DNA of 64,000 bases from the NCBI RefSeq assembly GCF_002160305.1, contig NZ_NFKI01000010.1, positions 1 to 64,000 of the forward strand. Direction: 5' to 3'. The translations under genes and the position numbers were made by a program. Shown here piece by piece: positions 3,353 to 63,157 of the stretch (the stretch's first letter is position 1; every line of letters starts with the position of its first letter). Below the pieces are notes generated by a model, which worked only from the letters and a program-made list of their open reading frames with translations, was not told the origin of the DNA and ran no database searches. This stretch comes from Pseudoflavonifractor sp. An184 (lineage in GTDB: Bacteria; Bacillota; Clostridia; Oscillospirales; Oscillospiraceae).

Positions 3353-3484
3353 TGTCGAATTAGGGAAGAACATTGGATTTAGCGGCGAGATACATCGAAA
3401 CGGCCGCAGCTTGGTCAGGTGCCGCTCCCCTCCCTCCATGCAGTGTTCATATCCACGAACGATCCGCATAGGAGGGAAATACAA

Positions 3485-3898
3485 ATGACACAGAGAAATG
3501 ACGGCCGCGGCGAGATCAACTTATTGCAAAATCACTTTACCGCTTACCTGACTGTGGCCGTGCGGCGCTGTAAAAGCAGGTACCTGGAGGACCTGCGCAA
3601 ATTAGCCGTGTATGAACCCAGCTATGATTTCCAGGAGACGCCCTTAGACTCCACAGAAGAACCCGATCTTCTCTCCGGCCTCCCTCTCATGGACACCATT
3701 GAGAACAAGGCGGTCTATCGTGCGCTCAAATCCATGGCGCCTCGGGATCTGGAGGTATTGCTCGATCTCATCGTCTATGAGATGAAGCCGGCAGAGCTCG
3801 CGCAAAAACTTGGGCTCACCTACCAAGGCGCCATGGCCGTATATTACCGCGCCAGAAAAAAGCTGCTCCAGCAGCTGAAGGAGGACGAGAAAGCATGA
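3485..3898 (+). CDS. sigma-70-like factor, region-4 subunit
   Basis: A 137-aa protein whose C-terminal half (residues about 85-135, RDLEVLLDLIVYEMKPAELA ... GLTYQGAMAVYYRARKKLL) is a sigma region 4-type HTH that reads a -35 element. The N-terminal half (NHFTAYLTVAVRRCKSRYL) is helical and may contact core RNA polymerase. An earlier in-frame ATG (3419) is unlikely because ATG 3485 has AGGAGGG seven bases upstream. The next gene overlaps it by ATGA and carries a region-2-like segment. The pair resembles the split sigma factor SigO/RsoA of Bacillus subtilis. Such genes are common in clostridial conjugative elements. Confidence 0.7.
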   Translation: MTQRNDGRGEINLLQNHFTAYLTVAVRRCKSRYLEDLRKLAVYEPSYDFQETPLDSTEEPDLLSGLPLMDTIENKAVYRALKSMAPRDLEVLLDLIVYEMKPAELAQKLGLTYQGAMAVYYRARKKLLQQLKEDEKA

Positions 3899-11157: not shown

Positions 11158-11688
11158 TTATGGACTCTCACACAACCTTGTATAGGATTCTCGGGTTTTC
11201 CGGAGCAGTGTCCTCACCTTTTTTTCACTCAACTTTTTTTCAGCTGCAATCTCCCGCACGCTGTATCCAGCCAATCTCAGCCGCATCAGATCATACTGCT
11301 GCGCAGGCAGTTTGGCAGAGAGCGCATGGAGGATCAGCACCTCCTCCAGCTGTTGTTCCATCCTTTTGTCGGAGATCGCATGAAGCGGCATCCCATCCGT
11401 GCCTCCCGTGTCCAAACTGACCGTCTCCATGTGATGACGGCGTCCATAGCGGGTGCGCATGGCATGTGAAACACTCCGGCGCATGGCCTGGTTGGCAATG
11501 GTGGAAAAGGCATGCCGATGGAGTTCCGGCCGGGAGAGGTAGCGCCGCACCGCACTGATATACCCAAGTGCGGCGACGGCGTAATACTCCTCCTCCGGCA
11601 GCCCTCTACGTGCGAGGTACGCCAGGATAAGCCGGTGGTTCTCAGCAGCAAAGCGCCGCTCCTGATCTGTCAGCGCACTATCCAGCAT
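11158..11688 (-). CDS. sigma-70-family factor (regions 2 and 4)
   Basis: A 176-aa protein with both sigma modules. Region 2 spans about residues 18-80 (ENHRLILAYLARRGL, then ALGYISAVRRYLSRPELHRH and ANQAMRRSVSHAMR). A region 4 HTH spans about 120-172 (LPAQQYDLMRLRLAGYSVRE, then KKVRTLLRKTR). ATG 11688 has AAGGTGAG six bases upstream. It is the most complete of the sigma-like proteins in the window and probably directs element genes (inference). An alternative is a phage-type late regulator of the same fold. Confidence 0.75.
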   Translation of the reverse strand: MLDSALTDQERRFAAENHRLILAYLARRGLPEEEYYAVAALGYISAVRRYLSRPELHRHAFSTIANQAMRRSVSHAMRTRYGRRHHMETVSLDTGGTDGMPLHAISDKRMEQQLEEVLILHALSAKLPAQQYDLMRLRLAGYSVREIAAEKKLSEKKVRTLLRKTRESYTRLCESP

Positions 11689-14544: not shown

Positions 14545-14602
14545 AAAAAGGGACTGTGCCTGTTTTCAGCGTCGCTTCTGAAAACATGACACAGTCCCTT
14601 TT
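14545..14602. terminator. long terminator hairpin after ssb
   Basis: AAAAAGGGACTGTG pairs with CACAGTCCCTTTT, and inside it TGTTTTCAG pairs with CTGAAAACA. A- and T-runs at the two ends make it functional in both directions. It lies between ssb and the membrane-protein gene and may only partly stop the ssb transcript. Confidence 0.75.
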
Positions 14603-14612
14603 GTACCGGAGA

Positions 14613-15035
14613 TCACTCCGGCAGCGGTTCCCGCTCTCCGTCAATCCGCATTCCTTCCGGTGGAAGGGTGGACTCCGAAGCCGGTGAGACCGCGTGGGTT
14701 GTAGACGTCCTTTGAGAATTTGAGTTCGGCTTTTGCCGGAGGATCAGCCTGCCATCACGATAGATGATTTTGAGCCGGATTCCTGGTGTATACCCGTCCT
14801 TTGCCGTGTACTCCTCAACCAAGAGCGGGCCGTTTACTTCCAGGATGCAGCCCGGCCTCAAGTCTCGCTTGACCAGATGCTCGGCCTCCCATCCGTATGC
14901 CCATACCTGAAAAAGCTGCGCCGGTGCATTTCCGGTGCGTTCTTCCAGTGAAAAGCGGACATAGGGGGTCCCCTTCAGGCTCACCTTCAACTCCAACTCC
15001 GTGGTCACACGCCCCACAACATGAATAAAACTCAT
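14613..15035 (-). CDS. ssb: single-stranded DNA-binding protein (SSB-like)
   Basis: A 140-aa OB-fold protein. Residues 1-105 follow the SSB pattern: MSFIHVVGRVTTELELKVSL, PYVRFSLEERTG, FQVWAYGWEAEHLVKRDLRP, then GCILEVNGPLL. A short polar tail follows, but without the usual DDDIPF tip, so partner binding may differ from host SSB. ATG 15035 has AAAGGAG four bases upstream. It is the first gene after leader RNA copy A and its terminator, so expression is probably controlled by read-through of that terminator. Confidence 0.75.
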   Translation of the reverse strand: MSFIHVVGRVTTELELKVSLKGTPYVRFSLEERTGNAPAQLFQVWAYGWEAEHLVKRDLRPGCILEVNGPLLVEEYTAKDGYTPGIRLKIIYRDGRLILRQKPNSNSQRTSTTHAVSPASESTLPPEGMRIDGEREPLPE

Positions 15036-15067: not shown

Positions 15068-15227
15068 TATATAAAAAGTGCCAGTAATTCAACTGCATCC
15101 CGCAATGGGCGCAGTCGTACTACTGACACTTGAATACAAACTTAACAACGTGTGCAATGCAGGATCTCTCCTGCGGGACAAACCGGGTGGTCTGCCATCC
15201 CGAAGGACACGCACAATAATCAATTAC
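15068..15227 (-). ncRNA. conserved structured leader RNA, copy A
   Basis: About 155 nt on the minus strand from the promoter at 15234-15262 to a terminator ending near 15068, just ahead of ssb. It is closely related in sequence to 59240-59386. Predicted fold: UGUGC/GCACA closes a junction holding UCC-UUCG-GGA, GGCAGACC/GGUUUGUCC and GCAGGA-GAGA-UCCUGC. A conserved linker (GUUGUUAAGUUUGUA) follows, then a terminator stem AGTGTCAGTA / TACTGGCACT with TTTTTA. Helices differ from copy B by compensatory changes. No known riboswitch class recognised. Confidence 0.65.
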
Positions 15228-15233
15228 AGCGTC

Positions 15234-15262
15234 AGGATACCACAATATTATGTGTTTGTCAA
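15234..15262 (-). promoter_or_regulatory. promoter of leader RNA copy A / ssb operon
   Basis: Reading leftward: TTGACA (15262-15257), 17-bp spacer containing AATATTGTG, TATCCT (15239-15234). The copy B promoter has the same layout and shares AATATTGTG in the spacer. Confidence 0.75.
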
Positions 15263-17306: not shown

Positions 17307-20300
17307 TCAGTTTGCTTCTTCCACAAACTCCTGACAGAATCGCATGAGGATCATGGCAACTTGTGACCTTGTGGCGGAGCCACCTGGGGATAAGGTGCTG
17401 CCGTCGCCGGTGCCGCTGATGATCCCCGCGCCGCAGGCCCACTGGAGGGCGGAGACGGCGTACTCGGACACAGTAAAGGCGTCGGCGTAGCTGAGGATGT
17501 TGGTGTTCTCGCCGATGGACACGTCGTAGCCCTGGTGCTGGGCGTAGCGGTGGAGCATCACCGCCAGCTGCTCCCGGGTGATGGGATCGTCGGGGCCGAA
17601 ACTGCCGTTTCCATAGCCCCCGGCGATGCCCTCGGAGGTGGCCCAGCGGATGGCCTCTGCGTAGTAGGCCGCCGGGTCCACGTCGTCAAAGTCCATCAGG
17701 TAGTTGACAACCGGGCTGCCGGAGAGCCGCCACAGGATGGTGACGATCTGCCCCCGGGTGGTGGCGCCCTCCGGGCTGAAGGTGGAGCCGCTGGTGCCCG
17801 CCATCAGGCCCTCGCCGTAGACGTACTGGATGGCGTCATAGGCCCAGTAGCCCTCCGGCACGTCGTTGAAGGGCAGGTCCACCGGCTCGTGGCTCCTGTC
17901 GTCGATGACGATGGCGTAGTCGGAGGCGTGGTCCAGTTCGAACTCCGCCGTGCCGTCTCTGGCGATCCGGGCGGCCTGCTGGAACTCCAGCTCCTCTGTC
18001 CCCTCGTTGAACCAGTAGAGGTTGGCCCAGTAGTCGGCGTTGTCCCGGCCTAACGGGGCGGAGAGGGTCATGGTGAATCCGAACTGCCCGTCGTGGGCCA
18101 GGGATAGCTGGACGGCGCCGATCTCGCCGGTGACGGCGTTGAGGACCGTGGCGGGAATATCGCTGTCCCCCAGGTCCACGTCCAGGTCCAGGTCGTGGAG
18201 GCGGGTGTCCTCCGGGATGTCCAGGCCGTTGACCGTCCAGAGCACGCCGTCCCCGGCGTCGATCTCCAGGGTGATGTCCTGGCCGGCCAGCGCCTCAAAC
18301 ACCTCCCGCTCCAGGGTGGTGCGGCCGGGGCGCAGGGTGATCTCCACCGTGTCGCCGGGCCGGGCGTCCTGGATGTCGTCGATGGCTTGGTCGCTGAGGG
18401 AGGTGGAACTGCTGGAACTGCCTCCGCCGGAGCTGTACCGGGAGACGGTGACGGTGCAGGAGGCGCTTGCCCCGCTTCCGTCCGCCGCTGCGGCGGTGAT
18501 GACGGCGGTGCCGCGGGCCAAGGCGGTGACAACGCCGTTCTGGTCCACGGTGGCCACAGCGCTGTCACTGCTGGTCCAGGTCACCGCCTTGTTGGTGGCG
18601 TTGTCGGGGGCCACCGTGGCCGTGAGGGTCAGGGTGTTGGGGGTGCGGTTGTAGTACAGGGACGCCTGGGTCTGGCTGAGGGTCACGCCGGTGACAGGGA
18701 CTGTGACGGTCACGGTGCAGGTGGCGGTCTTTGTGCCGTCCTCCGTGGTGACAGTGATGGTGGCGGTGCCCGCACTCACGGCGGTGACGCGGCCGCTTGC
18801 GTCCACGGTGGCAACGCTTGTATCATCACTGCTCCACGTCACGTTTTTGTTGGTGGCGTCGGACGGCTCCACCGTAGCGGTGAGGATCTCGGTGTCGCCC
18901 ACATAGAGGCTGGTGCTGGTTTTGTTCAGTGTCACTCCGGTAACAGGAACCGTCGCGGCCGTCACGGTCACGACACAGGTGGCGGTTTTGCCGCCGTCAG
19001 CTGTGGTGACGGTGATGGTTGCGGTGCCCGCACCTATGGCGGTCACTTTGCCGGTCGCGTCCACGGCGGCAATGCTTGTGTTGCTACTTTCCCACGTCAC
19101 GTTTTTGTTGGTGGCGTCGGACGGCTCCACCGTAGCGGTGAGGGTGCCTGTTTCGTTCTCCACCAAGTTCAATGTGCTTGGACTAAGCGACACACTATTA
19201 ACTGGGACATAAGCTGCCGTTTCAATCGTCAGCGTAAACTGCGTGCTGTCGTTGCCGTAGTCATTTTCAGCCTCCACAGTGAAGGTGCTTTCCCCTTGTG
19301 CTGTGGGCGTGCCGGAGATCATATTTCCATTCAAGCTCAATTCCGCGGGCAGAGAACCGCTGGTGACGCTCCATGTAATGGTGTCAGAGCCGGTAGCTTC
19401 AAGGGTCTGATTATAGGTCGTACCCACCTCGCCGTTCGGCAGGCTTGCAGTTGTAATGGTCGGCGGATACTTCACGCTGTCGCCCAGGCTGGTCGTGATA
19501 TCTTCGTCCACCGTGCCACCGTCCACGATCACGTTGTGGCCGCCTGCGGCCAGGGCTGCACCATCGTCCAGCGTCAGGCTCTCGCCCTCGCCGATGGTCA
19601 AATCCTCCTGCAAGGTCACATTGCCGTACACGGTGCCCTCGTCGCCGTTAAAGACGATGCCCTCGCCGGAAGGGGACACTGGCTGGAGATTTGTAGTACT
19701 TCCGGCACCGATTTCGCCATTTCTTGCGTCCACGATGGCACTGTTGCTGATGGTTAAGGCCGTAGTTTTAGGAACGGTACCACTGCCGATAGAATCATAT
19801 AGAATCCCTGGAGACCCGCTGGCAGTCAGGCTGCCGCCGTCCACAGTCAGAGCGGCGGTCGAACTATTGCTGGATTGCACATTAACACCATAGCCGGCGG
19901 TATTGGTCCCCGTTGCTTCAACCTTGGCGTTCTGGATAAACAAAGCGCCATTGCCGTTGTTGCTCTGAACCCAGATGCCAGTCTGACTGGCGCTGGCATC
20001 CAGACTGCCGTCGCCCGTGATGGTCAGGGTGGCGCCGCCAGTAGAATTGGCCAACACATAGATCCCCTTGCCGACCTCTGCGATTGTATTGGTGCCCTCC
20101 AATGTGATTGTCAACTCCGCAGCGCCGTTCTGATTGTGCACGCCAATGGCAGCGCCAGCGACATAAGTGCTGGTATTATAGGGTACTTCCTCTTTAATCG
20201 TGGCGTTGTGCAGGGTCAGGGTATTGTAGCCTGCGTCATAATGGATATAGTTGTTTGACGGTGTGCCTTCCTCGGTGTATTGGGTGACACTTCCATCACT

Positions 20301-20462
20301 GTCCGTCGTCCAGTAGCCGCCGCTTGTCACTTCTTTGCCGCCGACATAAATCGTTTGTCCACTTTGTGCGCCCGCCGCCAGCGCCGTGGCGGGCAGCAGG
20401 CTCAGGCACAGGGCGAGGAAAAGTAAAAAAGCATTCCAGTTTTTGAGTATTTTTGATTTCAT
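17307..20462 (-). CDS. S-layer-homology surface protein with Big2 repeats
   Basis: A 1051-aa exported protein. A signal peptide spans about residues 1-29 (FLLFLALCLSLLPATALAA). A beta-helix-like region of short Thr/Gly/Asn repeats runs to about 330, then a putative-Ig domain (about 335-420). Three bacterial Ig-like Big2 domains (about 423-675) follow, each with VTWxSxxxxxATVDxxGxVTA. After a Gly/Ser linker and a beta domain come three SLH domains from about 865 to the end (FNDVPEGYWAYDAIQYVYGE, YAEAIRWATSEGIAGG). SLH domains anchor proteins to pyruvylated wall polymer. It follows the DUF4157 gene on the transcript driven by invertible promoter 1. Base composition is GC-rich. Confidence 0.9.
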   Translation of the reverse strand: MKSKILKNWNAFLLFLALCLSLLPATALAAGAQSGQTIYVGGKEVTSGGYWTTDSDGSVTQYTEEGTPSNNYIHYDAGYNTLTLHNATIKEEVPYNTSTYVAGAAIGVHNQNGAAELTITLEGTNTIAEVGKGIYVLANSTGGATLTITGDGSLDASASQTGIWVQSNNGNGALFIQNAKVEATGTNTAGYGVNVQSSNSSTAALTVDGGSLTASGSPGILYDSIGSGTVPKTTALTISNSAIVDARNGEIGAGSTTNLQPVSPSGEGIVFNGDEGTVYGNVTLQEDLTIGEGESLTLDDGAALAAGGHNVIVDGGTVDEDITTSLGDSVKYPPTITTASLPNGEVGTTYNQTLEATGSDTITWSVTSGSLPAELSLNGNMISGTPTAQGESTFTVEAENDYGNDSTQFTLTIETAAYVPVNSVSLSPSTLNLVENETGTLTATVEPSDATNKNVTWESSNTSIAAVDATGKVTAIGAGTATITVTTADGGKTATCVVTVTAATVPVTGVTLNKTSTSLYVGDTEILTATVEPSDATNKNVTWSSDDTSVATVDASGRVTAVSAGTATITVTTEDGTKTATCTVTVTVPVTGVTLSQTQASLYYNRTPNTLTLTATVAPDNATNKAVTWTSSDSAVATVDQNGVVTALARGTAVITAAAADGSGASASCTVTVSRYSSGGGSSSSSTSLSDQAIDDIQDARPGDTVEITLRPGRTTLEREVFEALAGQDITLEIDAGDGVLWTVNGLDIPEDTRLHDLDLDVDLGDSDIPATVLNAVTGEIGAVQLSLAHDGQFGFTMTLSAPLGRDNADYWANLYWFNEGTEELEFQQAARIARDGTAEFELDHASDYAIVIDDRSHEPVDLPFNDVPEGYWAYDAIQYVYGEGLMAGTSGSTFSPEGATTRGQIVTILWRLSGSPVVNYLMDFDDVDPAAYYAEAIRWATSEGIAGGYGNGSFGPDDPITREQLAVMLHRYAQHQGYDVSIGENTNILSYADAFTVSEYAVSALQWACGAGIISGTGDGSTLSPGGSATRSQVAMILMRFCQEFVEEAN

Positions 20463-31093: not shown

Positions 31094-32008
31094 TCACGCC
31101 CCCTGCTCCGTTGCCAGATAGAGCTTGGCAAAGCCTTTGGCGTTGGCATTGATATCCGTGACGAACAGGCACCGCCCTACCTTTCCTGTGTTTTCAATTA
31201 TACGCCGAAGAAGAATTGCCCCACCACCGGTAAAGATGGTCAGACCGGTGCGCAGATCCATCCCCCGCTCTCGCAGGGTCCCAAACAGGTCGCCCACAAA
31301 GCTGACCGCCTCCCGCTCCACCATCTCGGCAAGCGCAGGGGCATACCCGCCTTTTCGCTCCAGAATCGCGTCCACGTCACTCTCCTCCAGCCGCAGATCG
31401 AATTCCGCGTTGACTTTGGACAAGATCCGGTTATAGAGAAGAATCACTCCATTTTCCAGGGAATCGCTGGCGCTGAGCTGACCTTCCCCAAACTTGATCT
31501 GTAAGTAGTCCGCAGTGAAGCCCCCAATATCTACAACCACCGCCCGCGGCTCATCACACAGCTGCGTGAGCATCGTGCAGGCCGCGGCATAGGCCTGGGG
31601 GAAGCAGAGCACATCCGTAATCAAAATGGAATAGGGCCGTCCCTGAAAGGTGAAATTGACGTTGCGGCGCTCTTTGAAGTACCACTCAAACTTCTCGTAC
31701 TGAGAACCGTAGTGCGCCGGTGGGAGTCCCACTGCCAGCTGGATGGGCAGGACGACATTTGGGGAGTACGTCCCACGCTTGTCCAATTCTCGCGCGATCG
31801 CGAACAAGGTCAAGATAAAGAATCGTTCATCCTCCGTTTTATCCCGCCGGTAGGGGATGCGCTCATCCATCAGAGAGTAATATTTCCCGTCGTAGAAAAT
31901 TACCATGTCCCCAAGCGGCCGGGTCAGGCTCTCCCGGAGCCCGGAGGTAAACGGAGGGCAATTCTCTGTCTTGATCTGTTTATTCCCATGGTCAATTGCA
32001 ATCAGCAT
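31094..32008 (-). CDS. parM: ParM/StbA-like actin ATPase
   Basis: Forms filaments that push plasmid copies apart. The 304-aa product has actin-fold nucleotide motifs: phosphate 1 at the N-terminus (MLIAIDHGNKQIKT), phosphate 2 VVVDIGGFTADYLQIKFG about half-way, and the adenosine motif LTIFTGGGAILLRRII near residue 260. ATG 32008 has AAGGAG eight bases upstream; an earlier frame lacks a site. A partition system in an integrated element implies a circular, replicating stage. The centromere (parC) repeats are not obvious upstream. Confidence 0.85.
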   Translation of the reverse strand: MLIAIDHGNKQIKTENCPPFTSGLRESLTRPLGDMVIFYDGKYYSLMDERIPYRRDKTEDERFFILTLFAIARELDKRGTYSPNVVLPIQLAVGLPPAHYGSQYEKFEWYFKERRNVNFTFQGRPYSILITDVLCFPQAYAAACTMLTQLCDEPRAVVVDIGGFTADYLQIKFGEGQLSASDSLENGVILLYNRILSKVNAEFDLRLEESDVDAILERKGGYAPALAEMVEREAVSFVGDLFGTLRERGMDLRTGLTIFTGGGAILLRRIIENTGKVGRCLFVTDINANAKGFAKLYLATEQGA

Positions 32009-32217
32009 AAAATCAACTCCTTTTTTTGCTGTACTCCTTCTATACGCACACAACGCGCTTTTATCAACATTTTTTTGCCGGAGGTCCTCAAATTCACTGA
32101 ATGTTGCCGATCATTGATCCGCAGCTGCTATTGGCTTTGTATCCACAGCGCTTTGAGAATGAGCGAATGGCAGAAAGGTATAATAATCGTATTCTTGCTG
32201 TTTTGGAGGACTTTGTC

Positions 32218-40260: not shown

Positions 40261-40309
40261 AAAGAGGAATCCCGCAGAGACCAGCATGGTCCCTGCGGGA
40301 TTCCTCTTT
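40261..40309 (+). terminator. terminator of switch 2 surface operon
   Basis: 17-bp stem AAAGAGGAATCCCGCAG / CTGCGGGATTCCTCTTT with an inner GACC/GGTC pair, 80 bp after the SLH stop. Confidence 0.9.
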
Positions 40310-40361: not shown

Positions 40362-40401
40362 GAAAAAAGTAGCCCCGTACCAACAGCTGTTGGCACGGGG
40401 C
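40362..40401 (-). terminator. terminator of minus-strand operon
   Basis: Stem GCCCCGT-CCAACA / TGTTGG-ACGGGGC followed on the minus strand by CTACTTTTTTCT, just after the peptidase-like gene. Confidence 0.85.
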
Positions 40402-52182: not shown

Positions 52183-52221
52183 AAGGGCACGGGACGGCAT
52201 GTTGCTGCCGTCTCGTGCCCT
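52183..52221 (-). terminator. internal terminator in the DNA-processing operon
   Basis: 17-bp near-perfect stem AAGGGCACGGGACGGCA / TGCCGTCTCGTGCCCTT, 5-base loop; on the minus strand followed by TTTTTGATT and then directly by the LPD11 ribosome site. It probably lowers expression of pcfK/pcfJ relative to the primase and recD2 genes. Confidence 0.8.
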
Positions 52222-52229
52222 TACATGGT

Positions 52230-55544: not shown

Positions 55545-57857
55545 TCAAGCGACAACAGCATCGCTCTTTCTGGACAAAGCCTTATAGTAAAGTTGCACTC
55601 GCTGCGCCAGCAATGTATTCCGCTGGTCGATCTTATTCCGTAGTATGGCGGCGATCAGCATATCTTTCTGACCCACCAAAAATACTTTCTTCTTTGCACG
55701 TGTGATGGCCGTGTATACCAGATTTCGATTAAGCAGGATAGAATGCGGACGGATGATCGGGATGATGACATTTTCGCATTCAGAACCCATTGCCTTATGG
55801 ATGGTGATCGCATATGCGAATGTGAGGTCACCAAGCTTGTCCAATGGATATGTGGCCAGGCGGCCGTCATACTCCACCACGACAGACTGATTACTGATGT
55901 CACGGATCGTTCCTATGTCACCGTTAAAGACGCCAGAACCCACTAATACGCCGTTTTTGTCCCGCAGATCAATGTGATAATCGTTTTTTGTCTGCATGAC
56001 CCGGTCATCAATGCGAAACGTCTGATTCCCAAATCGAAGTTCTCCCTTGGCCTCATCGAAAGGATTCAGCTTTTCACGGATCACTTTGTTGATTTGCTCA
56101 GCAGAAGCCTCGCCTTCAGAGCGAAACGGTGAAAGGATCAAAACGCTCTCCACGCCTTGCTCCTCCACCATGCGGCAGTACATATCACAGATGATATCAG
56201 CACTTTCTTTTTGTCCTTTGCTCTTCACAAACATGAAATCATCTCCATAGAGGAGATTGGTCCGGCCTTCATGGATAAACCTAGCATTGTGTGCAATGCG
56301 GCTGTCCTCTGCCTGCCGGAATATCTGGTCTAAAACCGTCACCGGTATGACGCCGCTGGAAATCAGTTCGCGGAAAACATTTCCCGCTCCGACACTGGGC
56401 AGCTGATCGGCGTCACCGACCAGAACGACCTTTGCGCCATCGGCTATACGGCGAAAGAATTGCCATGCCAGCCACTGGTCCACCATGGAGGTCTCATCCA
56501 CAATGATAAGATCCGCCGTCAGTGGGCCTGATTGCTTGTTTTCCGGCATGACATCCTCCGTTCCTAACTTCAGAGCGCTGTGCAGTGTCTTAGCTTCCAG
56601 AAATCCGGTACTCTCTGCCATGCGTCTGCTTGCTCTTCCGGTTGGTGCGGCAAGCAAGATATCTGCACCTGGATAAACCGTCTGATACACAGCCAAGATC
56701 GCCTTCAGCACCGTCGTTTTTCCTGTTCCGGGACCTCCGGTGATAATAGAAATATTATGCTGAAACGCAGTCTCAACAGCGAGCTCCTGCTTTTCAGACA
56801 GGGTGATCCCCAGTTCTTGTTTGACTTTTTTCAGCGCGCTGCTGATATTTTTCTGCTTTGGGCGTTCGATCAGAATTTCTGATAAACGCCGGGCCGTCTC
56901 GTCCTCCAGTTCAAAAGCTTTTTTGAGATAGATACAGTCCCGGCATTTTATCACATCGCCGTGAAGGACCATCTCGTCAAACAGAGACTCCACTCTTGAT
57001 CTCGGGATCTTCATTTCTATGAGCGGAACATTCTTGTTGAGAAGCGTGTGCGCCTCAGTCAGAAGCTGTTCCTTTTCCACATAGAGGTGCCCCCGCTTAC
57101 CCTTGTTGTCCTCCAGCGTAAAGCAGATTGCTGCCTGTATCCGTTTCGGATCGTTCAGCTTCCCTCCGCTCTTCTGGACAATGCTGTCGACACGAAGGAA
57201 CCCAAAGCCTGGCACCTGGCATAGTTCATAGGGGCTTTCCTGCAGAATCTTCACGCATTGAACCCCAAAAAACTGGAAGATAGACAGGGCCGCTTTCGGT
57301 GTGACTTTAAACGGCGCGAGCAGGGTCATCAGATCTCTTAGGGCTCTGCTCTCGGTGTAGGACTGTTTGATATCCTCCAGACGGCTTTCTGTGATACCCT
57401 TGATCTCCAGCAGGCGCTCCGGCTGATACTCTAGGATGTCCAGAGTCTCCAAGCCAAACCGGTCTACAATGGCTTCAGCAGTTTTGGGGCCTATGCCTTT
57501 GAGCAATCCGGAGGCCAGGTAGCCCTGGATGCCCTCCTTCGTCCGGGGAATAAGTTCCCGCCACTGCGTCACTCTGAGTTGCGCACCATATTTGCTGTTC
57601 TTCCACTCGCCCTCCCACTGAATATCAATGTTTTCAGCCCTGGGAAGGTCATAACCGGTCACCGTAAAGCGGATCAAATGATCTCGGTAGGTGTACTGGG
57701 ACCTGCACTGCTCCGGAATCGAAGTATCTTCCGTGCGAATGCTCAGCACGCAGTATTTATTCACCGGATTGAAGTAGATCGTACGGTCATAGCGTCCGGT
57801 ATGGTGGACAAAACCACCTTGCTGGTCGGGCACTATAGTCTGTTCTTCTCGTTCCAT
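55545..57857 (-). CDS. recD2: RecD2-type ATP-dependent DNA helicase
   Basis: A 770-aa 5'-3' SF1B helicase. OB-like N-terminus, helix-hairpin-helix repeats (LKGIGPKTAEAIVDRFG, then LEIKGITESRLEDI), and the helicase core: motif I GGPGTGKTTVLKAI (about residues 374-387), motif II VDETSMVDQW, motif III VLVGDADQLPSVGAG, and C-terminal motifs ITIHKAMGSECENVI and LNRNLVYTAITRAKKKV. RecD2 works without RecBC. ATG 57857 has AAAGGAG five bases upstream. In this operon it would unwind DNA for the adjacent exonuclease or for replication. Confidence 0.93.
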   Translation of the reverse strand: MEREEQTIVPDQQGGFVHHTGRYDRTIYFNPVNKYCVLSIRTEDTSIPEQCRSQYTYRDHLIRFTVTGYDLPRAENIDIQWEGEWKNSKYGAQLRVTQWRELIPRTKEGIQGYLASGLLKGIGPKTAEAIVDRFGLETLDILEYQPERLLEIKGITESRLEDIKQSYTESRALRDLMTLLAPFKVTPKAALSIFQFFGVQCVKILQESPYELCQVPGFGFLRVDSIVQKSGGKLNDPKRIQAAICFTLEDNKGKRGHLYVEKEQLLTEAHTLLNKNVPLIEMKIPRSRVESLFDEMVLHGDVIKCRDCIYLKKAFELEDETARRLSEILIERPKQKNISSALKKVKQELGITLSEKQELAVETAFQHNISIITGGPGTGKTTVLKAILAVYQTVYPGADILLAAPTGRASRRMAESTGFLEAKTLHSALKLGTEDVMPENKQSGPLTADLIIVDETSMVDQWLAWQFFRRIADGAKVVLVGDADQLPSVGAGNVFRELISSGVIPVTVLDQIFRQAEDSRIAHNARFIHEGRTNLLYGDDFMFVKSKGQKESADIICDMYCRMVEEQGVESVLILSPFRSEGEASAEQINKVIREKLNPFDEAKGELRFGNQTFRIDDRVMQTKNDYHIDLRDKNGVLVGSGVFNGDIGTIRDISNQSVVVEYDGRLATYPLDKLGDLTFAYAITIHKAMGSECENVIIPIIRPHSILLNRNLVYTAITRAKKKVFLVGQKDMLIAAILRNKIDQRNTLLAQRVQLYYKALSRKSDAVVA

Positions 57858-57879
57858 CGGTACTCCTTTCTTACCATTG

Positions 57880-58938
57880 TTATGTGACCTGCTCTTTTGG
57901 GACGCCACTCACGCGAAATGTCCGGTACTCGGAAGTGGTCACGAACTGCCGGTACGCCTCAGGATACAATGTCTGCATCCGTAGCATGTCTTTTTTCATG
58001 ATCGAGGCTTTTTGTATCGGATTATAGGTGACTTTATAGCAGCTGCCATTCACTTCGCAGTAGGCCGTGCAGTTGTCTCCCATTTCAGCTATGATCAATG
58101 CCCGAAGCCGCTTCATTTCTTTATTGAGCGATTCGGCTTCCTGATCCCTGTCTGCTTTGCAAGCTTGAAGTTCTAGGTACTTCTCAAGACATCTTTTGCT
58201 TTTCTCTGAGAGCTGAACGGCATCTTTCTCTGGATCTGCCAGACCGACATGCCGTTTCAGGCTTTCCTCGATCAGTTCTGCGTCCTCTGTATAGGGCGGG
58301 GGAATTCGAGCCAAAACGTGATCCGTCCAGAAGCATTGCTCCAGGAAAATCAGTTCTGATTCGTAGAAGCAGTCCCGCTCAATGTGCCGGATGATCACCT
58401 CGTCCTCATTGTTTCCATACAGGCAGCAGAAATAGACTTCATCTACATTCATCACGGCCATGTAATGCCGGCCTTGTGCCTCATAGTATTCCGGTACGAT
58501 CTCCTGTCCATTGCTCCACCAGTGGCTCTTTGCGTTATAGTTGGTGGTCTTTATTTCCAGGATAGCCGTCTGTCCATTCGGCAGTGTGATGAAGAAGTCG
58601 ACGTCTGCCAGCATAAAGGGATAAAGAGGGTGCTGAAACATGCGCTCCAATTTGAAGATCGGGAGGCCCGTCTTTCTGGTGAAGATCTCCGCCACCAGAT
58701 CTTCTAGGAGGTGTCCCATTTTCAGCGCGACCCAATTACCCTCATATTCAGCTGTTGTGACGAGACCCAACTTGTCGTAGTAGATATCCCGTGCCGTTCG
58801 GAACGGAGAGATCCCCATGATAGAGGCAGCGTCACTTCCGCCGATACCCTGTCTCCGATATGCCAGCCATTCCTCTCGTGAGAGATCCGTGGTGTCAACG
58901 AAGACTCTGGGCGCGTAATTCGGACTTTGTGCTGTCAA
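57880..58938 (-). CDS. YqaJ-type (lambda exonuclease-like) nuclease
   Basis: A 352-aa PD-(D/E)xK exonuclease of the YqaJ viral-recombinase family: RRQGIGGSDAASIMGISPFR (residues 28-47), GHLLEDLVAEIF (E80), ADVDFFI (Asp 112/114), AILEIKTTNYNAKSHWW (E128-x-K130), EYYEAQGRHYMAV. Such enzymes chew one strand of duplex DNA to feed a single-strand annealing protein. Start is TTG 58938 with GAAGG eight bases upstream, overlapping the stop of the 48-aa gene. Its partner here may be 54628-55464. Confidence 0.9.
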   Translation of the reverse strand: MTAQSPNYAPRVFVDTTDLSREEWLAYRRQGIGGSDAASIMGISPFRTARDIYYDKLGLVTTAEYEGNWVALKMGHLLEDLVAEIFTRKTGLPIFKLERMFQHPLYPFMLADVDFFITLPNGQTAILEIKTTNYNAKSHWWSNGQEIVPEYYEAQGRHYMAVMNVDEVYFCCLYGNNEDEVIIRHIERDCFYESELIFLEQCFWTDHVLARIPPPYTEDAELIEESLKRHVGLADPEKDAVQLSEKSKRCLEKYLELQACKADRDQEAESLNKEMKRLRALIIAEMGDNCTAYCEVNGSCYKVTYNPIQKASIMKKDMLRMQTLYPEAYRQFVTTSEYRTFRVSGVPKEQVT

Positions 58939-59085
58939 TTAGCACGCCTTCTTTCGCTTGATGGCACGTGCGTTGAACGCACGCTTGATCTGCTCACCAT
59001 TCCACCGCGGAGTTTCTCTGATCCACTTGCGGTCCGGCCTTTTGGCCCGAATGTGATGATGAGATCTTCTTCGCTTGTTTTTCAT
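58939..59085 (-). CDS. 48-aa highly basic protein, first gene after leader RNA B
   Basis: Begins MKNKRRRSHHHIRAKRPDRK, ends AFNARAIKRKKAC. Ribosome site GGTGG seven bases before ATG 59085. The strong positive charge suggests nucleic-acid binding. Its stop overlaps the yqaJ start. It is the first gene after the leader RNA terminator and might even act on that RNA (speculation). Confidence 0.5.
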   Translation of the reverse strand: MKNKRRRSHHHIRAKRPDRKWIRETPRWNGEQIKRAFNARAIKRKKAC

Positions 59086-59239
59086 TGGTATTCCACCTTT
59101 CATAATATCCTCAAAGCCTCTCGGCATCTGGGCAATAAAAAAGCGAGAATAACCTATCCACTTTCAAGCGGCTGTCACCATACGTAAATTCGAATGGTCA
59201 AGGTCATTCTCGCATAGATGGGAACAAGTCCCATAAAAC

Positions 59240-59386
59240 AAAAAAAGCCGATTATATCACGGCCCAATGGGCGCAGTAATACAATCGGCAATTACAAACT
59301 TAACAACGTGTGCAATGCAGGAAGAATATCCCGCCGGACAGAATTTTGCTCTGTCATCCTTACGGACGCGCACAATAATCAATTAC
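59240..59386 (-). ncRNA. conserved structured leader RNA, copy B
   Basis: About 147 nt on the minus strand, from the promoter at 59393-59421 to a terminator ending in TTTTTTTG. Same conserved blocks as copy A (GTAATTGATTATTGTGCG; CCTGCATTGCACACGTTG; TTAAGTTTGTA; ACTGCGCCCATTG). Predicted stems: UGUGC/GCACA around UCC-GUAA-GGA, GACAGA/UCUGUC and GCGGGA/UCCUGC; terminator stem GCCGATT/AATCGGC. The tetraloop is GUAA where A has UUCG. It heads the yqaJ-recD2-primase operon; the first gene starts 155 bp later. Confidence 0.65.
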
Positions 59387-59392
59387 ACAGGC

Positions 59393-59421
59393 AATATATC
59401 ACAATATTTTGCGATAGTCAA
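59393..59421 (-). promoter_or_regulatory. promoter of leader RNA copy B
   Basis: Reading leftward: TTGACT (59421-59416), 17-bp spacer with AATATTGTG, TATATT (59398-59393). Matches the copy A promoter in layout and spacer. Confidence 0.75.
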
Positions 59422-59681: not shown

Positions 59682-60920
59682 TCAGCCTGGTGCCACCACA
59701 AAGTACCCCAGCTTTTGCAGTTCGTTCACCATACGGCTGGCCCGTTTGCGCTCACTTTGTTTTCTGCGGATCTCAAAACAGTCTTCGTTGTATGGAGAAC
59801 CTGTCTTCAACATCGTGTAAATCAGCGCCAGCAGTTTGCGAGCCAAAGCAATCGTTGCACGTTTAGCGCCCTTCCGCTGTTTTATCCTCCAGTACCAACC
59901 GGAGAGGTACAAGCTTCGTTTTCCGGAGATGACCCATCCCACCTCGCAGAGCATACTCTTCAGATACGGATTACCTTTGTTAATGTGAGCACTCTTGCGT
60001 TTTCCGGCACTCTCGTTGTTACCGGGACTCAAACCAGCCCAGGAGCATATATGCTGGGAATCCGGAAAGGCACTCATATCGGTACCAATCTCCGCGATAA
60101 TGGCTGCTGCCGCAGTTACATCAATGCCCGGTATGGAGCACAGGAGGCTCAATGCCTCTTCGTGCTTTGTGATCTCTTTCGTAATAGCGTCCTCCACAGT
60201 ATGGCGGTGCTGTTCAAGCGCTTCCAAGTGCCCAAATATCATGCGAAGAAAGCCGCGCTGGTGCTCCGAGAGCGAACCGTTCAAGGCAATCAGTATTTCG
60301 TCGATACGTTTCCGGGTCTGCGTTTTCAGGCACCGGTCCAGAGCTTCCCGCGAAATATTTCCGTATTCCATGAGATGACGGATGATGTTTCGCCCGGAAG
60401 CGCCAAATGCGTCCGACAGAAACGCTGTGAAGCGGAAACCGGAGCTTTGCAGAAATTTATCGATGCGATTCTTTTGGGCGGTAATGTCGCGAACGATGCT
60501 CTTACGATACCGGGTCAGATGCCGCAGTTCCCGGAAGGTCTTATCTGGGATAAAACTTCCCTTTAGTAATCCGGCACGGAGTAATGTGGCGATCCATTGC
60601 GCGTCCCGCATATCCGTTTTACGCCCAGGCACATTCTTCATGTGGCGGGCATTCACGACCAGAATGCTGATCTGCCCATCAAAACATGGCTCCAGCATTT
60701 CGTAAATAGGCTGCCAGTAGATCCCGGTGCTCTCCATAGCGACATAGCGGCACTCTGCTTCCAACACCCAATCCCGCAGTTTCCGCATTTCCGGGATAAG
60801 TGTGCTGAAGGAGCGAATCTCGATTTCCGGATCGGTGCCCAGCTCACCTTTGGCAAGACAGGCAACGATAACGTCACGATGAATGTCCAGTCCCATGGCG
60901 CAGGTCAATATGTCTTGCAT
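59682..60920 (-). CDS. IS110-family transposase (DEDD recombinase)
   Basis: A 412-aa protein. N-terminal RuvC-like DEDD domain: MGLDIHRDVIVACLAKGELG; VAMESTGIYWQPIYEML; KTDMRDAQWIATLLRAGLLK. C-terminal Tnp_IS110 domain with the serine region: LLCSIPGIDVTAAAAIIAEI; FPDSQHICSWAGLSPGNNES; NKGNPYLKSMLCEVGW. Full length with no obvious defect. ATG 60920 has AGGGAGGG upstream. Family members are RNA-guided by a bridge RNA encoded in the element's non-coding end. Confidence 0.93.
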   Translation of the reverse strand: MQDILTCAMGLDIHRDVIVACLAKGELGTDPEIEIRSFSTLIPEMRKLRDWVLEAECRYVAMESTGIYWQPIYEMLEPCFDGQISILVVNARHMKNVPGRKTDMRDAQWIATLLRAGLLKGSFIPDKTFRELRHLTRYRKSIVRDITAQKNRIDKFLQSSGFRFTAFLSDAFGASGRNIIRHLMEYGNISREALDRCLKTQTRKRIDEILIALNGSLSEHQRGFLRMIFGHLEALEQHRHTVEDAITKEITKHEEALSLLCSIPGIDVTAAAAIIAEIGTDMSAFPDSQHICSWAGLSPGNNESAGKRKSAHINKGNPYLKSMLCEVGWVISGKRSLYLSGWYWRIKQRKGAKRATIALARKLLALIYTMLKTGSPYNEDCFEIRRKQSERKRASRMVNELQKLGYFVVAPG

Positions 60921-61158
60921 CAAATCCCTCCCTGAATTATGCAGGCTGGGAATTGCCCGGGTGGGTATCCGAACTTTGCTACTCGTGCTCTTCACTTACG
61001 TGACGCAACATACTGCTGTTCTCTTGGGCAATTCGTCCACGTTGAACAAACGGGGTGAAAATCCACCAAGGTGCAACCGGACTACGACTGCTGTCTTCAG
61101 TTTAGCAAATCCTTCGGTTAACGCACAGACTATATTTTCATTCTCAGCTGTGATGGCA
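60921..61158 (-). ncRNA. candidate bridge RNA region of the IS110 element
   Basis: The 240-bp non-coding stretch upstream of the transposase is where IS110-group elements encode their bridge RNA. It contains several short complementary segments (for example GGGCAATT near 60952 and 61026) that could form stems. Position-based call; loops were not assigned. Confidence 0.35.
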
Positions 61159-61443: not shown

Positions 61444-61710
61444 ATGAGCTACAACGATTGCAGCGTATCCGCTCAACGAACCTACACTGTTGAGCAGATA
61501 GCGGAGATCCTTGGTGTCAGTATTCGCAAAGCATATTACATTTGCGAAACTACGAACGATTTTAAGGTCATTCGGCTCGGGCGGCGTTGCCTGCGCATCC
61601 ACAAAGAATCTTTTGATCAATGGCTGGATGGGGCGAACCGCGGTCCTGAGCAAGCACCAGAAAGGAACTCAAATAATGGCAACTTACAAAGTAAGGGGGA
61701 CCTCACATAA
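61444..61710 (+). CDS. xis: excisionase-type HTH protein
   Basis: An 88-aa protein with a MerR/excisionase winged helix: RTYTVEQIAEILGVSIRKAY, FKVIRLGRRCLRIHKESFDQ, WLDG. ATG 61444 has GAAGGAG nine bases upstream. It overlaps the integrase start by 35 bp, the usual Xis-Int arrangement of Tn916-like and related elements. Directs excision by bending DNA near the att site (family knowledge). Confidence 0.85.
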   Translation: MSYNDCSVSAQRTYTVEQIAEILGVSIRKAYYICETTNDFKVIRLGRRCLRIHKESFDQWLDGANRGPEQAPERNSNNGNLQSKGDLT

Positions 61711-63157
61711 TGTAATTTACCAATACCGAACTTCTTCGGGCCAGGTAAAACAGCAGTGGGAGTCCTATGAGAGCGAATTGGAGGCGATCCAGCGGAAAGC
61801 CTTCATTGACTATCTGCAATCAAAGAAACAGACCGATGAAATCCGAAAACAGGCATTGGAGTATAAAAGGTCCCGTGCAATTGAAAAGACGGCCAGCAGA
61901 ATTTCTCATGAGAGCGCTGATTGCCTGGAGGCTCCCACAGCCATGAATTCTGAGGAAAACATGCTGCGGACCTACAAAGAGTTTATGGACAAGTTTCTGC
62001 CGGCCTATGCCCGCAAGAAAAACTTTTCCCCAAAGACATACGACAGTTATATCAGCAACCTTAACACGCATATACTGCCGTACTTTGGAGACTGGGTGAT
62101 GAGTACGATCACAGCGCAGGCAATAGACGATTTCATCGACCATCTGCGTAAAACGCCTTGCCGCGGCTTCAAGAGCTATGGAAAGAAGGCCAGTGAAATC
62201 CCTACCCTAAGTTCTCCGACCATCAAAAAATGCTATAACATTCTCATGCTCGGGTTTCCAACAGCAAAACGCTGGGGGTATGTGAAGGAGATTCCTGACA
62301 CGACTGCACCATCGGAAAAATTTAAAAAGCGCAAAGCGTGGTCGCCGGTCGCCATCATGGAAGCCTTGGTCAAAATCAAGGATGACCCACTGCTCCACCT
62401 GGCCGTACACATAGCGTTTGTCTGCTCTCTACGCGCGGCAGAGGTCGTAGGCTTGGATGCAAATTCTGTTAATCCTGAAGATAACAGCATCTGGATCACG
62501 CAGATTGTTGAGCGTGTATCAGATAACTCACTACGGGAGCTGCCCAAGGAGCGCATCGTACAGATTTTTCCCAAGCAGAATCCGCTTTCTAAGACCAGCA
62601 TGATTCTGAAGACACCCAAAACAGATGACAGCTTTCGAAAGCAGTATCTGACTGGGCCATTGCTGAAGGAGATCATGGAGCGTTTGAAAGTGATAGAGCA
62701 GAATAAGTCTGCCCTTGGTTCAGAGTATCACGACTACGGCCTATTGATCTGCCAGAACGATGGTCGCCCCATTGATCCCTGTAATCTCTGCAAGTCATTT
62801 CGGCGCTGGCAGACGGAGCACCACATAACGGACCAAATTGACTTCCAAGGTCTTCGAAAGTCCGGTCAGATGCATAAGGTACGGCTCACACAAAACAACT
62901 ATCAGCTCGTTGCTGAAAGCAGTGGGCAGTCGCCGGAAGTTCTTATGAGCAATTACAATGAGGCGCTGGACTCCGAAAAGAGAAATCTATCCAGTCTTGT
63001 TGAAGCCGATCTATACCCAAAGCCATTTGCAGAAAGTGAAAAAAATATCGAAGAAAAATTTGATGCAGATCTTCTTTTAGAAAAAATTCGGTCTGATCCA
63101 GACTTTTCTCGTCAGCTTATGCAGTTACTGCTTCGCAATGCAGAAAAAGCCAGCTGA
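61676..63157 (+). CDS. int: site-specific tyrosine integrase
   Basis: A 493-aa integrase. N-terminal arm-binding and SAM-like domains (TYKEFMDKFLPAYARKKNFS; YISNLNTHILPYFGDWVMST), then the catalytic domain with AFVCSLRAAEVVGLD (Arg), FQGLRKSGQMHKVRL, SSGQSPEVLMSNYNEAL (Tyr). The first and second His are replaced by Gln, as in a Lachnospiraceae/Oscillospiraceae branch I recall. ATG 61676 has AAAGGAA upstream and lies inside xis. It presumably integrated this element at tRNA-Thr(GGT), whose 3' fragment lies 110 bp downstream. Confidence 0.9.
   Translation: MATYKVRGTSHNVIYQYRTSSGQVKQQWESYESELEAIQRKAFIDYLQSKKQTDEIRKQALEYKRSRAIEKTASRISHESADCLEAPTAMNSEENMLRTYKEFMDKFLPAYARKKNFSPKTYDSYISNLNTHILPYFGDWVMSTITAQAIDDFIDHLRKTPCRGFKSYGKKASEIPTLSSPTIKKCYNILMLGFPTAKRWGYVKEIPDTTAPSEKFKKRKAWSPVAIMEALVKIKDDPLLHLAVHIAFVCSLRAAEVVGLDANSVNPEDNSIWITQIVERVSDNSLRELPKERIVQIFPKQNPLSKTSMILKTPKTDDSFRKQYLTGPLLKEIMERLKVIEQNKSALGSEYHDYGLLICQNDGRPIDPCNLCKSFRRWQTEHHITDQIDFQGLRKSGQMHKVRLTQNNYQLVAESSGQSPEVLMSNYNEALDSEKRNLSSLVEADLYPKPFAESEKNIEEKFDADLLLEKIRSDPDFSRQLMQLLLRNAEKAS

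Follow-up and report, generated by a model that had tools for sequence, protein, structure and literature searches.

The same short leader, a promoter followed by a folded RNA and an immediate terminator, precedes two operons in the window, that is, in the stretch of 64,000 nucleotides of Pseudoflavonifractor sp. An184 that we analysed, and we wanted to know what such an RNA does there. That the same folded RNA with an immediate stop stands at two operons, and is kept in many elements, suggests that the RNA decides whether the stop is passed. Our preferred reading is that of a cis-acting leader RNA that probably lets the polymerase pass terminators (processive antitermination), and we give it a probability of roughly 0.58.

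Both copies lie on the minus strand, 44 kb apart. Copy B extends from 59421 to 59240 (-). Its promoter (59393..59421, -) has a -35 box TTGACT (59421-59416), a spacer of 17 nt and a -10 box TATATT (59398-59393); transcription is predicted to start at 59386, 6 nt past the -10 box, with an RNA that opens with GTAATTGATTATTGTGCG. The RNA core (59293..59386, -) is built from an outer helix UUGAU/GUUAA and an inner helix UGUGC/GCACA with three hairpins within, and its 3' part is a linker ending in UUUGUA. After another 3 nt there begins a strong terminator, T1 (59240..59289, -; stem 59289-59247, T-run to 59240), which carries ACUGCGCCC on its 5' side. Copy A extends from 15262 to 15073 (-), with a promoter (15234..15262, -; -35 TTGACA 15262-15257, 17 nt, -10 TATCCT 15239-15234), a core of the same plan (15135..15227, -) and a T1 (15073..15131, -; stem 15131-15076, T-run to about 15073) that also carries ACUGCGCCC. 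As had been claimed, the two promoter spacers share AATATTGTG.

Over about 160 nt, 75% of the positions are the same in the two copies. There are two exact occurrences of ACTGCGCCCATTG in the window and no more in the rest of the genome; if one mismatch is tolerated, chance would give 0.16 occurrences in the window, and 2 of 100 shuffles reached two. The fold of core and terminator was better than all 200 shuffles in both copies (z -5.5 and -6.3), and a covariance model search of the genome returned exactly two matches, A and B, at E values up to 1. A known Rfam RNA was rejected, since the window had no match in Rfam 15 at the gathering score and both copies gave only chance-level hits. The observation of two copies is confirmed, and the original prediction of a regulatory leader RNA without a known family is supported.

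Operon A begins with ssb (14613..15035, -; PF00436, E 2.4e-7), whose start we read as the ATG at 15035. Copy B was expected 155 bp before an open reading frame for a basic protein of 48 aa, and it is indeed followed at that distance by a gene for a very basic protein (58939..59085, -; pI 12.0, net charge +16), then by genes for a YqaJ-type recombinase (57880..58938, -; PF09588, E 1.2e-23) and a RecD2-type helicase (55545..57908, -; PF14490, E 5.2e-26). As to the primase that was also placed in this operon, Pfam recognised none among the ten operon-B proteins scanned.

To collect the family, we searched 84,980 species genomes and viral contigs with a single degenerate pattern taken from the core's 3' side. 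It matched 116 stretches in the species genomes and 6 in the viral contigs, and a longer exact DNA pattern had no match in the viral contigs. Note that the pattern fixes TTGCACACG...TTTGTA, so that the invariance of the core 3' side is partly due to selection; model R1 recovered members that break the fixed pattern. Four of the 146 pattern matches were dropped because they have no recognisable 5' strand (three of them lie within 60 nt of an end of their sequence), and repeats of one locus were merged. This gave 110 contexts, many of them from related genomes, which include the two of the window and contain 99 distinct cores. The named hosts among the matches listed (80 of the 116 stretches) are Clostridia, for example Lachnospiraceae and Oscillospiraceae. 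Anaerotruncus colihominis DSM 17241 (locus L021) is one strain with such an element.

The core, about 94 nt long and located at the predicted transcription start, consists of one to three hairpins enclosed by two nested helices. We aligned 68 cores without fitting them to a structure, and the structure was itself derived from this alignment; in it, 95.9% of the cells are paired, compared with 88.7% in shuffles, and 111 cells show double changes, compared with 33.7; none of 500 shuffles was as good. Sliding the partner by one to three columns reduced the pairing in this alignment to 19-52%. The inner helix is fixed by the search pattern, from which G1172 and L156 depart by a compensatory change (UGUGC/GCACA to UGCGC/GCGCA). 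As expected for RNA, the sense strand of the core makes frequent use of G-U pairs. When the 99 cores were folded as single sequences, three inner hairpins were found in 77, two in 20 and one in 2, and the inner helix formed exactly in 82. Without the terminator the single-sequence signal is weaker (mean z -1.8, 38 of 99 cores below -2); that single cores fold only moderately better than shuffles counts against our reading.

Conservation across loci is much higher in the core than in the terminator loop. The original prediction had singled out an invariant 13-mer in that loop as a likely binding site, and this held in part: the core, not the 13-mer, is the main conserved feature, and what survives is a short motif. 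The 13-mer reduces to a loose motif in 92 of 110 contexts (10.6 in shuffles) or to RYGCC, and by inspection of the predicted folds the segment is paired in some types and lies in a loop in others. RYGCC is found in T1 in 90 of 110 contexts (17.1 in shuffles), and on the predicted structures it would fit a sequence-specific contact. The suggestion of a complementary RNA acting in trans gained no support from the genome, where the exact 13-mer occurs only at the two copies, with nine one-mismatch sites elsewhere.

Next, we asked which genes follow the RNA. According to tblastn searches with the downstream DNA, it heads an ssb operon in 33 of 110 contexts (assigned by a match to SSB in 28 of the 33, otherwise to the next gene), a yqaJ-recD2 operon in 31 (one more is probable), a gene for a cysteine-rich protein of 67 aa in 22 (C-type) and a tyrosine recombinase gene in 6 (D-type). 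Of the 102 contexts in which the DNA extends far enough downstream, 93 can thus be assigned to one of these four operon types and 9 cannot; the other 8 contexts have too little downstream DNA. The small basic first protein belongs to the yqaJ-type operons only, with a pI over 10 in 21 of 22 distinct predictions, some of which have an uncertain choice of start. In one C-type example (L022:3372-4792, +) the 67-aa protein and a protein of about 400 aa are both without a Pfam match; in D-type examples (L014:5031-6361, +, L031 and L112) a small gene and the tyrosine recombinase lie downstream, and L112 has two copies of the RNA 276 nt apart.

Genomes carry one to four copies. In surveys with model R1, for which samples and stricter filters were used above 40 genomes, 27 of 300 genomes of the window's family have a match, 17 of them with two or more copies and 10 with one, the latter including a single-contig genome (G963). 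Surveys of the class gave 2 of 391 genomes, of the phylum 2 of 398 and of one more family 1 of 9; the family, class and phylum counts each include the window's genome. The distribution is patchy, as for a mobile element. The copies point towards each other in 8 of 12 contigs that have a pair (at distances of 2-72 kb, five of them 56-72 kb), and both lie on one strand in the other 4, including the window. A convergent pair with a distance of 78 kb is also found on a circular Subdoligranulum plasmid of 247 kb. Related elements have YqaJ, RecD2, PcfK and PcfJ on one side and ssb on the other, with copies of the RNA at both, which is the arrangement that the original prediction had proposed to look for. 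Its further idea, that one signal co-ordinates both operons, is plausible, but the number of copies per genome varies from one to four.

In G1010, G1172 and G918 the yqaJ-type copy adjoins an integrase-like gene. In the window such a gene lies at 61511-63157, and an IS110-type transposase gene (59682-60995, -) intervenes between it and copy B. The window also encodes two sigma-factor-like proteins (11158-11688, -, and 3419-3898, +), the first of which, with relatives in many ssb-type operons, is a possible regulator of the element; an actin-like partition protein (31094-32053, -) with relatives in G1010, G1172 and G918; and a protein with an eCIS core domain (PF13699; 20499-21758, -) adjoining a large Ig-like/SLH surface protein (17307-20462). 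Near-perfect inverted repeats at 40261-40309 and 40372-40401, where opposed genes meet, are likely terminators.

The promoter is a constant part of the leader. With at least 9 of 12 matches and an end 3-9 nt before the core, it was found in 104 of 109 contexts (3.6 in shuffles). A spacer of 17 nt with 6 nt to the core was seen in 102 of 109 when the search was limited to 3-9 nt before the core; when the promoter was searched anywhere in 80 nt, 78 of 109 had a spacer of 17 nt and 63 had the core at a distance of 6 nt. The promoters share further words: one like ATATNNTGTG in the spacer (94 of 109 promoter regions, 0.3 in shuffles) and one like CTATATATAG upstream (97 of 109, 5.0 in shuffles). 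This sharing suggests a common DNA-binding regulator and a probable shared operator. Control may be double, by the operator at the start and by the RNA at the stops.

Is the stop behind the core passed? T1 begins 1-10 nt past the core in 99 of 110 contexts; a recognised T1 is absent in the other 11, 4 of which are yqaJ-type. All 33 ssb-type leaders have T1, and in all of them the ribosome site begins 25-32 nt downstream, with the third base of the T-run as the point of reference. Since this distance is too short for a promoter, transcription of ssb has to cross T1, and the sequence strongly implies that this terminator is read through.

T1 is not the only predicted stop. In the operon of copy A another terminator, T3 (14546..14602, -; -35.7 kcal/mol), lies between ssb and the next gene, with its T-run 30 nt before the next start. 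A strong hairpin with a T-run (-28 to -40 kcal/mol) follows ssb in 30 of 31 operons examined, where the ssb stop was not found in 5 and was too early in 7, and in these cases the hairpin was sought in a longer stretch ahead of the next gene. In 20 of the 30 no more than 45 nt separate the beginning of the T-run from the next start, and in the lone exception (L116) the next gene is called so early that the hairpin falls inside it. The leader of operon B has a second structured terminator, T2 (59137..59213, -; GCGAGAAUGACC ... GGUUAUUCUCGC and a T-run). T2 is common to yqaJ-type and C-type leaders, and its stem covaries (45 distinct sequences). Within 59213-59095 (-), T2 is followed by GCCCAGAUGCC...GGCUUUGAGGAUA just before the ribosome site, with GCCCAAAUGCC in many relatives; this region recurs in yqaJ-type and in part in C-type leaders.

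We also looked for terminators inside the operons. Operon B of the window has only one close before a next gene (52183..52222, -, T-run about 29 nt before the next predicted start); it has counterparts behind the corresponding small gene of G918 and G1172, and in G1010 and G1172 a further operon B terminator lies after recD2. In total, 12 of 110 gene pairs of the elements have a terminator no more than 45 nt ahead of the second gene's start (24 operons tried, 18 of which gave gene pairs; the stretches of G1066b, G1152b and G083a began 0.5-3.1 kb after the RNA), compared with 5 of 186 pairs in 400 kb of the G1010 chromosome (Fisher p 0.008). The excess is modest: five of the 12 are T3, the operons are related, 7 of the 18 have none and the gene caller is crude. 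Terminator-like hairpins in sense and antisense direction are not clearly different in number in operon B (4 and 8 in the window; 5:3, 8:6 and 6:6 elsewhere), and in operon A the sense direction exceeds the antisense (5:2, 15:5 and 9:4). The 7 operons without an internal terminator, the single close one in operon B of the window together with its excess of antisense hairpins, and the 11 contexts without a recognised T1 count against our reading.

In a simple attenuator, T1 would be undone by an alternative structure. No conserved alternative pairing of the T1 5' arm with upstream RNA was found over 99 leaders (mean z +0.24, scattered positions, with the letters of the arm shuffled 30 times each), and a classical attenuator with a mutually exclusive antiterminator was rejected for this reason. 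A pairing of GCGUA at the start of the inner helix with URYGC in T1, which looked promising by eye for copies A and B, was dropped; C-type leaders, inspected by eye, break it (GCGAA with ACGCC). Leader-peptide attenuation was rejected too, as 18 of 99 cores are without an ATG and the closed frames of the others, taking ATG starts only, have very different lengths. So was LoaP-dependent antitermination, since the genome (98.8% complete) has one match to a NusG domain, on another contig.

Potentially, the core could be an aptamer or a protein-binding site that gates T1 and nothing else, as in a riboswitch or in autoregulation, for example by SSB. A compact, conserved core immediately before a terminator is what such a non-processive conditional terminator would look like, the ssb-type leaders have exactly this form, and the nearly invariant residues of the core suggest a specific recognition; that T1 directly follows the core suits an ordinary ligand-gated attenuator as well, which counts against our own reading. 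However, core and T1 5' arm have no conserved alternative pairing, no known aptamer was matched in Rfam, and the strong T3 after ssb and T2 in the yqaJ-type leaders would also have to be passed. We regard this explanation as rather unlikely, though worth keeping in mind. Gating of T1 alone leaves the passage of T2 and T3 unexplained, which favours a change in the polymerase itself.

It is also conceivable that the terminated product of about 150 nt is a small RNA that functions in trans, and that read-through is incidental. The unit has its own promoter and terminator, which should give a discrete short transcript, and together with its terminator it folds strongly; but a free small RNA would hardly be expected to head one of four operon types in 93 of 102 contexts, with the ribosome site at a fixed distance in all 33 ssb-type leaders and no room for a promoter after T1, and we consider this improbable. 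More doubtful still is that the structure acts as single-stranded DNA, for example as a promoter like Frpo on the strand that arrives during transfer. As this idea would have it, ssb typically belongs to the early genes once transfer has taken place, whereas a regular double-strand promoter stands before the core in 104 of 109 contexts and a terminator after it, the structure begins at the predicted transcription start and not within the promoter, and G-U pairs are used freely in the sense strand, as in RNA. Finally, a guide or bridge RNA of the IS110 transposon that adjoins copy B can practically be dismissed, since such a transposase lies within 3 kb (as far as the sequence extends) of only 1 of 110 contexts, and none at copy A.

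We therefore come back to processive antitermination. The RNA lies between the promoter and the terminators of its operon, and on the predicted terminators there is more than one to pass (T1 and T3, or T1 and T2). The lack of a conserved antiterminator pairing together with several terminators favours a modification of the polymerase, as for put, EAR, conAn and canT. While the RNA family, promoters, terminators and operon positions are established by sequence, we infer antitermination, its processivity, a partner and a trigger as follows. The leader RNA would be made from the element's own promoters and act in cis, its nascent core folding on leaving the RNA polymerase. Alone or with a small basic protein, for example the first product of operon B, the core would convert the polymerase to a form that passes not only T1 but also T2 (in the yqaJ leader), T3 (downstream of ssb) and further terminators within the operons. 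If this action is missing, the terminators would keep the DNA-handling operons silent, and one RNA at two or more promoters would allow one condition to open the operons together. By analogy with lambda N or with ConAn1, the 48-aa protein is a candidate for the partner.

The put RNA of HK022, a lambdoid phage, consists of two hairpins and is present at two early promoters of one genome. Here, in contrast, we see a junction of one to three hairpins, in Clostridia, with a terminator directly after it. As nascent RNA, put of phage HK022 acts on the polymerase by itself (PMC9378689). A likeness in setting comes from the work on Tn916 (PMC11658703), in which canT, an RNA of a Gram-positive integrative element, located after an element promoter and before terminators T1-T3, lets the polymerase pass these and unrelated terminators in cis and processively. 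Its active fragments have 341-452 nt, and its authors were unable to link the activity to a fold (PMC11658703); by this description, our RNA is set apart by a core of about 94 nt from the predicted +1, a covarying fold and its presence at several promoters. conAn of pLS20 is an RNA that works with a protein and stands at the beginning of a long operon in which terminators occur (PMC8955417); both are leaders at the head of an operon in Gram-positive mobile elements. The basic protein here heads only yqaJ-type operons. EAR of Bacillales eps operons is another RNA antiterminator of Firmicutes (PMC11658703 and PMC8955417); the operons differ, and the RNA here is without a match to any Rfam family. 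One more point counts against our reading: a transcript that reads in from upstream would also carry the core, and the insulator logic of Tn916 is therefore not directly transferable.

We consider it possible, at somewhat below even odds, that the RNA is an antiterminator of a new class, folded into a compact junction from +1, which places several operons of one integrative element under a shared terminator pass, perhaps with a very basic N-like protein from one of the operons. Our search of the open-access literature, which covered few subscription journals and preprints and was in several cases mostly off-topic, returned no paper listing that describes this RNA, which is weak evidence of novelty.

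The known RNA elements that make the polymerase ignore terminators are few; those named in PMC11658703 and PMC8955417 are put, EAR, canT and, as an RNA paired with a protein, conAn. If our reading is true, there would be an RNA antiterminator whose fold is clear, whose 5' end is precise and which naturally occurs in several copies, from Clostridia, where mobile elements have received little study; a construct of promoter, core, terminator and reporter would be a simple test system for it. Should it turn out to be an ordinary conditional terminator, the RNA would still be a family unmatched in Rfam 15 and present at operons of four kinds. As an antiterminator, it would moreover provide a regulatory link between the protection of single strands (SSB) and recombination (YqaJ, RecD2).
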